In this document: positions 1,302 to 51,869 of the stretch, in pieces | How positions within the stretch are numbered: the first letter of the stretch is position 1 | Layout of the letters: each line of letters opens with the position of its first letter | Source: Carboxylicivirga linearis | Lineage (GTDB): Bacteria; Bacteroidota; Bacteroidia; Bacteroidales; Marinilabiliaceae | Reading direction: 5' to 3' | Assembly (NCBI RefSeq): GCF_018271995.1 | Contig: NZ_JAGUCO010000005.1 | Location: forward strand, 124,001 to 188,000 | Length of the DNA stretch: 64,000 nucleotides | The notes under the pieces: generated by a model | The model's database searches: none | The model's input: the letters and a program-made list of their open reading frames with translations, nothing else | What the model was told of the DNA's origin: nothing | Position numbers and translations under genes: made by a program

Positions 1302-2321
1302 ATGAACAACGTATTTGTTATTTGCGAAGTAGATGAGGGAAAGATTGCCGATGTTAGCCTGGAGCTAATGACCAAAGGCCGTTCCCTTGCCAACCAGCTA
1401 AAATGTAAGTTAGAAGCATTAGTGCTGGGTCATAATTTAAAAGGAATAGAAAAAGAGTTATATCCATACGGAGCCGATGTGGTTCATATTGGCGATGACG
1501 AAAGACTGGATCCATATACTACTCTTCCACATACATCTGTTATTGTTGATTTATTTAAAAAGGAAGAGCCACAAATAGCTTTGTTAGGTGCTTCCACATT
1601 TGGTCGCGATTTAGGTCCGCGAGTGTCATCGGCTCTTCAGAGTGGTTTAACAGCCGATTGTACTTCATTGGAAATTGGACCTCATGAAGATAAAAAAGCC
1701 GGTAAAACATACGAAGATCTTTTGTATCAGATTCGTCCTGCATTTGGTGGTAATATTGTTGCTACCATTATCAACCCTGATTGTCGCCCTCAGATGGCAA
1801 CGGTTAGAGAGGGTGTGATGAAGAAAGAAATCTATGATGCTACGTATAAAGGAAAGGTGAGTAAAATAGAGGTTGACAAAATTCTTAAACCTGAAGATTT
1901 GGTGGTGAACGTGATTGAACGTCACATGGAAAAATCAAAGGTGAACATTAAAAACTCATCCATCATTGTTTCCGGTGGATATGGAGTGGGTTCAAAAGAG
2001 AATTTTAATATGCTTTACGAGCTGGCAGAAGTGCTGGGGGCCGAAGTGGGAGCTTCGCGTGCGGCTGTGGATGCAGGTTATGCAGAACACGAACGTCAGA
2101 TTGGACAAACAGGTGTTACGGTTCGCCCTAAGTTATATATTGCCTGTGGTATATCAGGACAAATCCAGCATACGGCTGGTATGGAAGAGTCATCTATGAT
2201 CATTGCCATCAATAATGATCCGAACGCACCCATCAATAAAATTGCTGACTATGCCATTACCGGCGATGTTGGCGAGGTGGTGCCGAAGCTGATTAAGTTC
2301 TATAAGCAGAACACGAAATAG
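1302..2321 (+). CDS. etfA: Electron transfer flavoprotein alpha subunit
   Basis: Alpha subunit of ETF, which carries the FAD. The C-terminal FAD domain is evident: SGGYGVGSKENF, then GASRAAVDAGY, RQIGQTGVTVRPKLYI, GISGQIQHTAGM and a late AINNDPNAPI stretch, all in the expected order. Length 339 residues fits the family. It follows etfB by 21 bases and precedes the acyl-CoA dehydrogenase by about 140 bases. Its stop codon forms the first bases of a heptanucleotide repeat tract. Confidence 0.94.
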   Translation: MNNVFVICEVDEGKIADVSLELMTKGRSLANQLKCKLEALVLGHNLKGIEKELYPYGADVVHIGDDERLDPYTTLPHTSVIVDLFKKEEPQIALLGASTFGRDLGPRVSSALQSGLTADCTSLEIGPHEDKKAGKTYEDLLYQIRPAFGGNIVATIINPDCRPQMATVREGVMKKEIYDATYKGKVSKIEVDKILKPEDLVVNVIERHMEKSKVNIKNSSIIVSGGYGVGSKENFNMLYELAEVLGAEVGASRAAVDAGYAEHERQIGQTGVTVRPKLYIACGISGQIQHTAGMEESSMIIAINNDPNAPINKIADYAITGDVGEVVPKLIKFYKQNTK

Positions 2322-2404
2322 ACGGTTAGAAAGTAGACGATTAGACAGATAGAGCGAAAAATCTGTTATCTAATAGTCTATAGTCTCCAAGTCTATTCAT
2401 CTAT
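2319..2404 (+). repeat. Heptanucleotide-periodic inverted tract
   Basis: Starting in the etfA stop codon, five heptamers run 2319-2353 (tagacgg, ttagaaa, gtagacg, attagac, agataga). After a short spacer, six heptamers of complementary character run 2363-2404 (ctgttat, ctaatag, tctatag, tctccaa, gtctatt, catctat). TAGAC on the left faces GTCTA on the right, so the RNA could fold into an imperfect hairpin between etfA and the dehydrogenase gene. Confidence 0.65.
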
Positions 2405-2460
2405 TAAAAAAATGTTGGATCATGAAACCCCGTTTGGGGAATCAATAATACAAAAACAAA

Positions 2461-49277: not shown

Positions 49278-50548
49278 GATTGTTTTAAAATAGTTTTAAA
49301 GAAGCTAATTTGTTTGTTGGCCATGGTTTCATCTGAGAATTCTGAATAAAACTCCCAATTAACATCGGTCTTAAATTTACCTTTTGCAATCAGGCTTGAT
49401 ATGGCCTCTTCAACCGCTCCCTGACGTGCTTGTAATTCATCTTTGTCGTTAAAGGTAATCACTGGACCTGCATTACAGTCCTTTAAGATAGCAGATACAC
49501 TGCTTTTAACATGTGTTAGAGCAATAATAGGTTTTTCGGATAGAATATATGGATAAATTTTAGAAGCGGTGTATCCAGCTTCCATTGAGCCTGGGAGTAT
49601 TAAAAAATCGGCATCTTTCATTACTTTCATGGCCTCGAAATAGCCTACTCGATCTGGAATTTCGGTTACACAATTTTCAACGCTCACTTCTTCAGCAATT
49701 GGTAAAGCAATTGATTTAGCATTTGGAGCATATGACGAACCTACAAAATAAATATGTATGTTTTGTTCAGGATTGTGCTCCATAACGCTTTTAAAAGCTT
49801 TAAGCATTGTTTTTAAAGGTAAGGGCATACCGGGTGTAACGGCACCGGTATATACCACTTGAATTTGATCAACGTCTTTCTTAAAAACAGGATTCTGAAT
49901 GTTTAATTGCTTAACAATTTCAAAATCCAAACGGCTGGATGCAAACGGTATTACAGAAAATGGTTTATTGATATTGTATCGTTTGTTTAAGGTCGATGGA
50001 TATGCTTCTGAAACGGAAATAAGTCCGTCACAATGGGGCACAGTATATTTTTCAAGTATAGAGTCAAAATAATAGGCAATTTTAAATTTTGGTGGGCGAT
50101 TAGTTTTTGGCTGCGTTAAATAATAATCATTTCGCCATGGATCTTGCATGTCAAGGATAAATGGGATGTCAAATTTACGCTTCCATACCCGACCTAAGGT
50201 CATGGCCGGAAATACAGTAGTGCTAAAATATACCAGATCAAATTGCTTTGCATTTAGCAATCTATTGCCGGCACGTTTTAATTGCCACCACGCCCGATAG
50301 CCAAGATTGCCTAATCCAATTCGTCTGGTAATACCGCTGGAAATGGCTTTAACCCGAATGACTTTACATGGATCCTCTAGTTGAGACAAAACCGGATCTA
50401 CCGGGGCTTCAATGTATTGAGGTTCCACGGCTAAAACAGTACATTCCCATCCTGCCTTTTGAAACCATGGGATACTGAGGCGTATACGATGTTGATCGGG
50501 TGTATTAACCGGCTGAAATGTAGGACAAACAATAAGTAGTTTAGGCAT
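49274..50548 (-). CDS. Glycosyltransferase family 4-like protein
   Basis: About 424 residues from ATG 50548: MPKLLIVCPTFQPVNTPDQHR, then PFILDMQDPWRNDYY (acceptor domain), SVSEAYP, IQVVYTGAVTPGMPLPLKTML (start of donor domain) and ILPGSMEAGYTASKIYPYIL in place of the usual Ex7E. The layout is that of WcaI-like sugar transferases. The in-frame start at 50581 overlaps the upstream gene; 50548 leaves a 4-base gap. Specificity unknown. Confidence 0.8.
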   Translation of the reverse strand: MPKLLIVCPTFQPVNTPDQHRIRLSIPWFQKAGWECTVLAVEPQYIEAPVDPVLSQLEDPCKVIRVKAISSGITRRIGLGNLGYRAWWQLKRAGNRLLNAKQFDLVYFSTTVFPAMTLGRVWKRKFDIPFILDMQDPWRNDYYLTQPKTNRPPKFKIAYYFDSILEKYTVPHCDGLISVSEAYPSTLNKRYNINKPFSVIPFASSRLDFEIVKQLNIQNPVFKKDVDQIQVVYTGAVTPGMPLPLKTMLKAFKSVMEHNPEQNIHIYFVGSSYAPNAKSIALPIAEEVSVENCVTEIPDRVGYFEAMKVMKDADFLILPGSMEAGYTASKIYPYILSEKPIIALTHVKSSVSAILKDCNAGPVITFNDKDELQARQGAVEEAISSLIAKGKFKTDVNWEFYSEFSDETMANKQISFFKTILKQS

Positions 50549-50552
50549 TTTG

Positions 50553-51869
50553 TTAAATAAAATTATTCCATAAGTTAACAATCTTAACTTTTTCTATTTC
50601 CCACGACAAACTCTTTCCAATGTTTAATCTATTTCTTCTGTTGTGTTGAATATCTGATAAAATATGAGTTAGATGTTTAATAAGCATTGCTATTTCATCC
50701 GTTGATTGCCCGCAAAGAAGCCCCAGTTCTTTTTGATGGCTTAAAAATTGAGATTGCGCCAGGGTATCAGTGGCTAAAATAAAATGGCCCGCCTGTGCAT
50801 AAGCCATTATTTTATTTGTGAGGCAGAGTTGTCGATTCAAATCTGTTGTGTCAAATTCAAGCGCCAAACCAATATCATGCTTAGTCAGTTCGGTGTGAAG
50901 ATCGGGTTGAGACATTGGATGTTGGATGTTAAGATTTATGATGTGCGATTTGCGATTTGCGATTTGCGATTCATCCTTCTTCACTAAAACTATGGAGGAC
51001 AGGAAGGGTTGGATAATTTGTTGATCAAATTGGGGATCGAGGTTACCAATGAGGGTAAGCTGGATGTTTGAATGTTCGATGTTCCAATTTCGATCTGCTT
51101 CTTTAGAAAGAAGAAGAATGGCTTCAAAGAATTGTTCGAGACCACGGCCGAACGAAATGTTTTGCGAGAACCACACCAACTTGAGAGTTGAGAGTTGAGA
51201 GTTGAGAGTTGAGTTTTTAGGTTCTACAAATTCTTTTTGTGGGAAGCTGTTGAGTATGACTTGGTGGTTGGGATGCCCTCCAATCAGTTTTAAGGTATAA
51301 TCGCCAATGAGAGGGCTGGCACTGGTAAGTGCCTTTGCTTTTGGTGCACATTTTTTCAGCAGATATTCCGTGCAGGATTTATAATGCTTACCTGCTTCCG
51401 GAACATGTATCCCCGGGTCATAGTCCTCAATATCATAAATAAACGGTATGTTTGTGCTCAGGCTTAATTGATAAATGGGGTATAAAGTTCCAAGGTTATG
51501 GCCGATTAATAAATCACAATGCTTAATTTTTCTTAGCGTGTACCACAACTGAACAGATCGCCTGGTGTGAACCAGCGCATTCACAAATAAGCAGCGCTTA
51601 AAAAGCGGGTAAAGAAAACGTCCTAACTTTTCCATAAGCGCCCAAAACAACCAGGAGAAAGCTTGAGAACGCGTGGCACTCAGTTGAATAAAATTCACCG
51701 AAGGCCTTTTGTTCATTTCTTTTTGATTAAGTGCTTCACTCCAGTTTCCCAAATTGAATAGCACAACACTTACTATATGTTCCTTTAGTGCTAAATCAAC
51801 TTCCTTTAAAAGCCTTGGATTAGTTGGAAGGTTACTGGTTGTAAGAAAAAGGAGGTTCTTTTTTTTCAT
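50553..51869 (-). CDS. Glycosyltransferase (GT-B) carrying three heptad inserts
   Basis: 438 residues, GT-B type: NLLFLTTSNLPTNPRLLKEVDLAL at the start, IPFIYDIEDYDPG, SASPLIGDYTLKL, LVWFSQNISFGRGLEQF opening the donor domain, and TKHDIGLALEF late. Three stretches (KNSTLNSQLSTLK, RNWNIEHSNIQ and SQIANRKSHIINLNIQ) are encoded by heptanucleotide arrays at 51181-51215, 51061-51095 and 50910-50972. Start shares one base with the upstream stop. It should fold if these are loops; specificity unknown. Confidence 0.75.
   Translation of the reverse strand: MKKKNLLFLTTSNLPTNPRLLKEVDLALKEHIVSVVLFNLGNWSEALNQKEMNKRPSVNFIQLSATRSQAFSWLFWALMEKLGRFLYPLFKRCLFVNALVHTRRSVQLWYTLRKIKHCDLLIGHNLGTLYPIYQLSLSTNIPFIYDIEDYDPGIHVPEAGKHYKSCTEYLLKKCAPKAKALTSASPLIGDYTLKLIGGHPNHQVILNSFPQKEFVEPKNSTLNSQLSTLKLVWFSQNISFGRGLEQFFEAILLLSKEADRNWNIEHSNIQLTLIGNLDPQFDQQIIQPFLSSIVLVKKDESQIANRKSHIINLNIQHPMSQPDLHTELTKHDIGLALEFDTTDLNRQLCLTNKIMAYAQAGHFILATDTLAQSQFLSHQKELGLLCGQSTDEIAMLIKHLTHILSDIQHNRRNRLNIGKSLSWEIEKVKIVNLWNNFI
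50910..50972 (-). repeat. Nine-unit heptanucleotide array in coding sequence
   Basis: Plus-strand heptamers agacatt, ggatgtt, ggatgtt, aagattt, atgatgt, gcgattt, gcgattt, gcgattt, gcgattc: 63 bases, 21 codons, frame kept. Four units are almost identical. Confidence 0.78.
51061..51095 (-). repeat. Degenerate heptanucleotide array in coding sequence
   Basis: tggatgt, ttgaatg, ttcgatg, ttccaat, ttcgatc (plus strand). A sixth unit (tgcttct) is doubtful. Confidence 0.55.
51181..51215 (-). repeat. Near-perfect heptanucleotide array in coding sequence
   Basis: Four identical ttgagag units and one ttgagtt. Of all arrays in the window this is the most uniform and so the most likely to slip. Confidence 0.8.

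Follow-up and report, generated by a model that had tools for sequence, protein, structure and literature searches.

Degenerate seven-base arrays of Carboxylicivirga linearis appear to be a Bacteroidota version of the heptad repeats of cyanobacteria and Xanthomonas

Introduction

The short tandem repeats (STRR) of cyanobacteria are tandem heptanucleotides. The tracts considered here, eleven arrays stepping by seven or, less often, eight bases in a 64,000-nucleotide stretch of the Carboxylicivirga linearis genome (contig NZ_JAGUCO010000005.1, positions 124,001 to 188,000; hereafter the window), resemble STRR in being built of tandem heptamers, a comparison made by description and not by sequence. 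They appear to be the Bacteroidota version of a poorly understood repeat type with a seven-base step that cyanobacteria and Xanthomonas also have. The shared step, in excess across the phylum for arrays with a TAG core, is accompanied by adjacency and consistent orientation relative to stop codons, hairpins in some of the arrays, orthologous spacers whose lengths differ by multiples of 7, and in-frame insertions in polysaccharide genes.

The nearest described class is that of the Xanthomonas GGGAATC heptads (PMC4692102). According to the excerpted text of that source, to which all statements on it are limited, the GGGAATC repeats of Xanthomonas and the GGGGA(C/T)T repeats of Nostoc have a step of 7, combine fixed with variable positions, are mostly intergenic, with a preference for sites directly behind the stop codon, overlap included; two Xanthomonas genomes hold 70 and 75 inverted heptad pairs, and the same gene pairs in sister species carry heptads that vary in length and sequence (PMC4692102). 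A heptanucleotide STRR case from Calothrix is also cited there. The arrays described here share with these repeats the step, the fixed and variable positions, the adjacency to or overlap with stop codons, the inverted pairs and the occurrence of changed repeats in the same gene pairs. However, whereas Xanthomonas and Nostoc use one G-rich, quadruplex-capable word type per genome, the Bacteroidota arrays comprise several words with a TAG core, and they differ further in degeneracy, in their mixed 7- and 8-base steps and their in-frame inserts in polysaccharide genes. A four-GGG quadruplex motif occurs in none of the eleven tracts on either strand.

A second class consists of TAACTGA direct repeats, found in Beggiatoaceae, cyanobacteria and five Bacteroidetes (PMC4679880, excerpted text). 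These are likewise heptad-stepped, intergenic and patchy over phyla, with some copies in open reading frames (ORFs) and long arrays in some Bacteroidetes, but they consist of one exact word lying mostly just upstream of Beggiatoaceae start codons, whereas the tracts use many degenerate words and are often stop-adjacent. TAACTGA is absent from the eleven tracts, and the window holds no tandem pair of it. In an original prediction, made by a model from the letters of the window, no equally described class was known in Bacteroidota. This was nearly right, although the TAACTGA arrays of five Bacteroidetes had been reported (PMC4679880), and a high repeat density in Bacteroidota has also been published (PMC12699852, as excerpted). 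Searches of an open-access library brought up no account of degenerate heptad arrays in Bacteroidota, although one may exist elsewhere; heptamers were not found in the excerpted text of PMC4060949.

An excess of heptanucleotides in bacteria was published earlier, with 7 as the most abundant of the surveyed unit lengths in most genomes (Mrazek, 2007, as cited in the excerpted text of PMC4692102 and PMC4679880), and Mrazek and colleagues proposed a polymerase-contact hypothesis for this step (via PMC4692102 and PMC4679880). It is for tandem simple repeats that this work is cited; the citing excerpts make no mention of degeneracy, cores, hairpins or insertions into genes.

A Seven-Base Step in Differing Words

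The tracts of the window, with one octad array found beside them, are the following (where the original prediction gave other limits, these stand in brackets).

2319..2404, plus strand: hairpin of a TAGA-cored 5' arm and a TCTA-cored 3' arm, steps 8, 7, 8, 8; fold z -4.97; between etfA and the acyl-CoA dehydrogenase gene
4221..4321, minus strand: degenerate heptads, a purine-rich GAAGACN part and then four CTA cores (4297-4320; TAG on the minus strand)
4418..4454 (4426-4453), plus strand: GACGGAAG-type heptads without a TAG core
4480..4539 (4477-4539), minus strand: nine CTA cores at 7-base pitch (TAGNNNN on the minus strand), spacer letters variable
8295..8375 (8295-8371), no strand assigned: heptad-stepped hairpin exactly filling the gap between two convergent stop codons; fold z -4.55 for 8290-8380
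41355..41384 (41350-41384), minus strand: TACTGAC heptads, TAGTCAG on the minus strand; intergenic, before the glycosyltransferase gene at 41397
42408..42470, plus strand: GAGNTGA heptads in the glycosyltransferase gene 41397-42608 (plus strand)
48787..48837 (48801-48842), minus strand: AAATCTC heptads, peptide SQISNLKS, in the glycosyltransferase gene 48048-49277 (minus strand)
50915..50971 (50910-50972), minus strand: AAATCGC/ACATCCA heptads in gene 50553-51869 (minus strand)
51061..51095, minus strand: weak heptads in gene 50553-51869; about 3% of windows score as high
51181..51215, minus strand: CTCTCAA heptads, peptide NSTLNSQLSTLK, in gene 50553-51869
41206..41230, no strand assigned: intergenic octad array ATTTCGAC, about three copies, like the heptads but with a step of 8

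When the eleven tracts were scored by self-identity at lags 4 to 12, lag 7 was the top lag in ten of them, with identities of 0.45 to 0.93 that were equalled by 0.006% to 0.81% of same-length windows in the 64 kb. The remaining tract, 2319-2404, scores best at lag 8 (identity 0.47); its lag-7 identity of 0.30, reached by 31% of windows, is ordinary because 8, 7, 8, 8 is the spacing of its TAGA/TCTA cores. Scanned without gaps, the window gave, at the threshold used, six segments of period 7, one of period 8 and four of period 14, and none at periods 4-6, 9-13 or 15. The heptads are exact at 51181-51213 and degenerate at 4477-4539 and 42408-42470.

The original prediction had described a strict 7-base register in at least ten places. 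This agrees with ten of the eleven tracts and fails for 2319-2404, which mixes 7- and 8-base steps, and a single fixed step is unsupported in that form, as some arrays step by 8. The further claim that each tract has its own consensus applies to 4426-4453, 8295-8371 and the five coding tracts, none of which has a TAG chain, but not to 2319-2404, 4221-4321, 4477-4539 and 41350-41384, four of the six intergenic tracts, which share a TAG chain on one strand. The common 7-base step in differing words was borne out, giving the earlier reading partial support overall.

Excess of Period 7 across Genomes and the Phylum

The genome from which the window comes (G000) is a 6.05 Mb draft in 180 contigs, of which five short ones, C1, C2, C3, C50 and C60, read as N throughout and were left out of the statistics. 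In 468 kb of this genome, nine arrays of period 7, one of period 6 and five of period 8 were found; one set of third-order Markov shuffles contained no period-7 array, and between 0 and 3 arrays at any one of the periods tried. Seven of the nine period-7 arrays sit within the window, which is therefore unusually dense. Twelve loci from Carboxylicivirga and close relatives yielded 13, 1 and 1 arrays at periods 7, 6 and 8. Further away, with group labels assigned from record titles, period 8 is ahead in sixteen other Marinilabiliaceae loci (15 arrays, vs. 8 at period 7) and period 7 in 32 mostly Dysgonomonadaceae-like loci (21, with 15 at period 6). Because 20 mostly Prolixibacteraceae-like loci show no clear excess of period 7, nor of core chains at 7/8 spacing, the trait is patchy. 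Chains of exact 4-mer cores have 7/8 as their top steps in four of six sets (G000, the one-contig genome G001 of the same genus, Carboxylicivirga and the other Marinilabiliaceae), and in the Dysgonomonadaceae-like set chains at 6/7 slightly exceed those at 7/8 (19 vs. 17). Separately, the Labilibacter locus L035 (5681-6637 and 12699-13771) holds many octad arrays of the TTGATTTG/AAACAAAT type; the one at 5681-5800 folds no better than shuffles.

In the intergenic DNA of G001, 12 arrays of period 7, one of period 6 and five of period 8 were found. The 221 kb of intergenic DNA in G001 and G000 together contain 27 chains in which TAG or CTA recurs at least four times at 7/8 spacing, where 1.0 would be expected; spacing 8/9 yields 3 such chains, and spacings 5/6 and 9/10 none. 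Steps of 7 bases outnumber those of 8 by 275 to 57 in 75 arrays taken from the genus and some relatives; the words of these arrays, sorted by eye, are of TAGA, TAGC, TAGG and TAGT types, with TAGTCAG the most frequent, a word that the window's 41355-41384 tract shares with other genomes of the genus. Of 296 Bacteroidota genomes, 126 contain five TAGs at spacing 7. Spacing controls, run with this one word on 198 of the same genomes, gave 18 genomes at spacing 8 and 13 at spacing 6, vs. 87 at spacing 7 (counted by eye from the list). The reversed control word GAT is likewise common in Bacteroidota, partly because words such as TAGATTT hold both triplets, and other families are enriched in triplets different from TAG; TAG as a universal word was accordingly rejected. 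Period 7 thus exceeds periods 6 and 8 in the own genome and the genus, as had been anticipated, and across the phylum for TAG-cored arrays; a heptanucleotide excess was found in these sets and in the intergenic DNA of G001, and not in the 20 Prolixibacteraceae-like loci.

Could such counts reflect chance, base composition or an assembly artefact? The genome is a draft, several of the window's Tandem Repeats Finder (TRF) rows lie near threshold, and in 1.28 Mb of G001, a weaker control, the lower-threshold counts at period 7 were 13 in the real and 5 in the shuffled sequence (4 and 0 at the higher threshold). Nevertheless, the period-7 count of the shuffles was 0 in all six sets vs. 2 to 21 real arrays, spacing 7 exceeds 6 and 8 phylum-wide, and the 2316-2406 array was found again in the one-contig G001 at 96% identity, so that an origin by chance, composition or artefact has next to nothing to recommend it.

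Arrays at Gene Ends

The first TAG of the 2319-2404 array is the stop codon of etfA (1302-2321), and the array occupies the spacer before the acyl-CoA dehydrogenase gene (2461-4161), which is 98% identical to its G001 locus and 91-94% identical to those of Carboxylicivirga species and close Marinilabiliaceae loci. Relatives of Carboxylicivirga carry stepped hairpins directly after the stop codon at the same etfA-dehydrogenase spacer, and some species also at the etfB-etfA spacer, with words that vary by species (TAGAC, TTAAT, AGCTAAT); other relatives, including most of the more distant ones, have short etf spacers without stepped hairpins. In four relatives of the TTAAT type the etfA-dehydrogenase spacer measures 125, 132, 153 and 154 bases, so that the lengths stand 7, 21 and 28 bases apart but for a single extra base, and the alignment of these spacers shows gaps of 21 and 7 columns beside gaps of 1 and 2 columns. 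Between L025 and the window, the etfA spacer differs by short indels as well as point changes. Orthologous spacers thus vary by 7, 21 and 28 bases alongside point changes and not by point changes alone, in line with the original prediction.

Adjacency to stop codons extends beyond etfA. With stops taken from script-called ORFs of at least 120 codons, 7 of 18 TAG arrays lie within 20 nt after a plus-strand stop (4.8% for random intergenic points) and 4 of 20 CTA arrays lie within 20 nt before a minus-strand stop (random 3.4%); the reverse orientation near stops was met in one TAG case and one CTA case. Altogether, 11 of 38 intergenic TAG/CTA arrays are near a stop in sense orientation and 2 in antisense. 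The 8295-8375 hairpin likewise abuts coding sequence on both sides, between an acetyltransferase ORF ending at 8294 and a CvfB-like minus-strand ORF ending at 8376.

Folding is a property of part of these arrays. Seven of 11 chosen sequences reach z values of -2.6 or below, and strict pairs of TAG and CTA chains were found in 5 of 42 arrays. A hairpin at every tract was ruled out, as 4219-4330 (z +1.67), 4410-4545 (z +1.92) and 41346-41396 (z +0.93) fold like shuffles.

Several other observations were made around these spacers. The leader of the acyl-CoA dehydrogenase gene (2405-2460) retains AATGTTGGATCA-like letters and, behind them, a small hairpin that varies in both of its sides from species to species (CCCC..GGGG, TTCC..GGAA), which suggests, by comparative sequence, a conserved RNA element. 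In the etfB-etfA spacer of L030 (4400-4595), a second heptad pair (GTGAGNA/TCTTATG) lies in the loop of the first; L046 has the first array pair at the same place and lacks the second. The interval 4325-4410, between two heptad tracts of the window, includes a pair of small GC-rich hairpins (CCCTCCGGG and GGGCTCCGCCC) belonging to a dispersed element that has partial matches elsewhere in G000, G001 and G006; 4567-4743 contains several copies of a CCACG-NTGTGGA-like inverted motif inside 180 bases. The window has no Rfam match at the gathering score.

In-Frame Insertions in Polysaccharide Genes

The first 39.4 kb of the window can be aligned to G001, and the polysaccharide part to the right found no match within the 80 kb of G001 compared. 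Heptad tracts occur in three genes of this part: 41397-42608 (plus strand) and 48048-49277 (minus strand), which are glycosyltransferases by Pfam, and 50553-51869 (minus strand), which is without a Pfam match. These genes were compared with 24, 21 and 17 homologs, respectively, taken as the best-scoring loci in other Bacteroidales, and at the position of every one of the five coding tracts there is an in-frame insertion that most of the homologs examined lack. The 42408-42470 tract corresponds to a net gain of 17 residues relative to 22 of 24 homologs. The 48787-48837 tract falls within 21 additional residues (63 nt) relative to 20 of 21 homologs (27 residues vs. 6) and 20 relative to the other (7 residues). 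In gene 50553-51869, the 50915-50971 tract lies within 20 extra residues compared with 16 of 17 homologs and 22 compared with the remaining one; the weak 51061-51095 tract is at a gain of 11 residues over 15 of the 17 homologs (those spanning the site), and the 51181-51215 tract at one of 5 residues over 12 of 17. The other two homologs of 41397-42608, L326 and L347, themselves carry insertions close to or at this site; these are longer, use other words, and score best at lag 7 (identities of 0.39 in L326 and 0.41 in L347, vs. 0.35 for the next best lag in both); the inserted word is clear in L347 (ATTACAA) and less clear in L326 (AGCAAGG-like). Additionally, the polysaccharide cluster of G001 carries eight TAG/CTA arrays in 7 kb, of which four were scored as coding (51934, 52919, 54410 and 54916 of the joined piece), the last three with CTA on the coding strand.

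Rickettsia palindromic elements also insert in-frame into genes and form families with a common consensus, whereas the tracts, compared with them by description, share only a step and a short core. Mobile palindromic elements of this kind, or resembling miniature inverted-repeat transposable elements (MITEs), which inserted into spacers and genes and then decayed, could account for the in-frame insertions absent from homologs, the dispersed occurrence, the hairpin anatomy of a minority (7 of 38 arrays) and the second array pair within the loop of the first in L030, lacking in L046. Yet nothing beyond short words proved to be shared: a comparison of the 2316-2406 hairpin with 14 genomes of the genus returned orthologs in three (own genome included), the remaining hits being matches of 29-45 bases to an arm, and terminal repeats or target duplications were not recognized by eye, without a systematic test; this origin is therefore regarded as improbable. 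A single mobile element was rejected because no common full-length consensus was found, the 2316-2406 hairpin being the one tested.

Origin and Maintenance of the Arrays

We lean, with little more than even confidence, toward the tracts being products of iterative 7-base (less often 8-base) duplication, kept where they serve as a 3'-end hairpin or are tolerated as a protein loop. Such short duplication would act at many loci across Bacteroidota, from different starting words; fresh arrays would gain and lose units and later decay through point changes. The arrays may be made by slippage, or by repair synthesis in which the polymerase has a 7-base register. They would persist in two settings. 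At gene 3' ends, an array often starting at or within the stop codon, and possibly facing an inverted partner, would let the spacer fold as a 3'-end hairpin, where the shared 7/8 step would allow TAG-type cores of one arm to pair with CTA-type cores of the other despite spacer changes; the second arm could be made by hairpin-templated copying, and the hairpin might insulate or stabilize the upstream message. In variable polysaccharide-locus genes, arrays would persist as in-frame inserts in tolerated loops, using words and orientations free of in-frame stop codons. Iterative duplication in a 7-base register, the simplest account and one that Mrazek and colleagues put forward for heptanucleotide repeats (via PMC4692102 and PMC4679880), would account for the step and for the many different words, as well as for length changes of unit size and insertion at multiple sites. 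Similarity of adjacent units was discarded as proof of slippage, the test being biased because the arrays were detected by adjacent matching.

Several results weigh against iterative duplication with selective persistence. Seven is not the sole period in G001, where periods 9, 11, 12, 14, 15, 18, 21 and 22 also give 10 to 26 arrays and, in intergenic DNA, periods 11, 21 and 22 give 10, 15 and 13; those of periods 11 and 22 apparently form a separate repeat class. In the closest pair, the window and G001, 2316-2406 differs by point changes only. The 11 stop-adjacent arrays represent about eight independent sites because some are orthologs, four of the 11 chosen sequences did not fold as hairpins, and a partner arm in hairpin orientation (z of at least 3) was found in only 7 of 38 intergenic arrays (wrong orientation, 1 of 38). 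Furthermore, in three picked TAG/CTA arrays (4480-4539 of the window, and 49178-49244 and 50984-51047 of the joined piece of G001) the core changed in 0 of 78 cells and the other columns in 42 of 104, and invariant cores are not predicted by plain slippage followed by random mutation; other arrays, e.g., G001 335802-335845, lack such a core. Finally, one word can occupy many separate places in a genome (TAGATTT at eight listed places in G617), an observation that would not be expected if every array arose purely locally. The invariant cores and the shared words might instead reflect selection acting on the core or a template supplied in trans.

The first of these alternatives treats the arrays as selected binding or pairing platforms, with a conserved core of 3-4 bases (TAG in this genus) every 7-8 bases of the transcript and free spacers, read by other arrays or by a hypothetical RNA- or DNA-binding protein, e.g., an RRM protein. 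In addition to the invariant cores and variable spacers of the three picked arrays, column heterogeneity (p < 0.05 in 17 of 69 arrays; Fisher p 6e-12), the consistent orientation after stop codons and the recurrence of arrays with different words at the same etfA-dehydrogenase position fit a platform. However, the enriched triplets vary between lineages, the window's five coding tracts are without a TAG chain, and some relatives are wholly array-free at the same spots. Selected platforms are thus possible, although we hold them doubtful.

The second alternative is a hypothetical genome-specific template, i.e., a telomerase-like enzyme or ectopic copying from a master array, that adds 7-base units at many loci. 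Identical words at many places of a genome, differing between genomes, speak for it; besides G617 they occur in G604 (TAGTTGA/TAGTGGA) and G413 (TAGATNN); TAGTCAG is recurrent across the genus. By contrast, the units of Carboxylicivirga are degenerate, with several word families in one genome, which makes templated addition a very improbable source.

A broader proposal, which we consider unlikely, is a genome-wide system of Bacteroidota, going beyond slippage, in which short lineage-specific cores are written every 7-8 bases at stop codons and in polysaccharide genes, the core being maintained while the spacers drift and the fixed pitch allowing any sense array to pair with any antisense array. 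If real, it would amount to a code in which pitch specifies 3'-end hairpins, and it would keep supplying glycosyltransferases with new in-frame loops.

Implications

Why a 7-base step is favored in many bacteria has been open since at least 2007 (PMC4692102 and PMC4679880, excerpted text). Bacteroidota offer orthologous spacers from many species, some alleles with and some without arrays, in which the step can be traced, and the same 7-base step is met where polysaccharide enzymes have acquired in-frame segments. This setting makes the polymerase-register hypothesis directly testable, and the tracts point to a source of loop insertions that has been overlooked in surface-polysaccharide genes.

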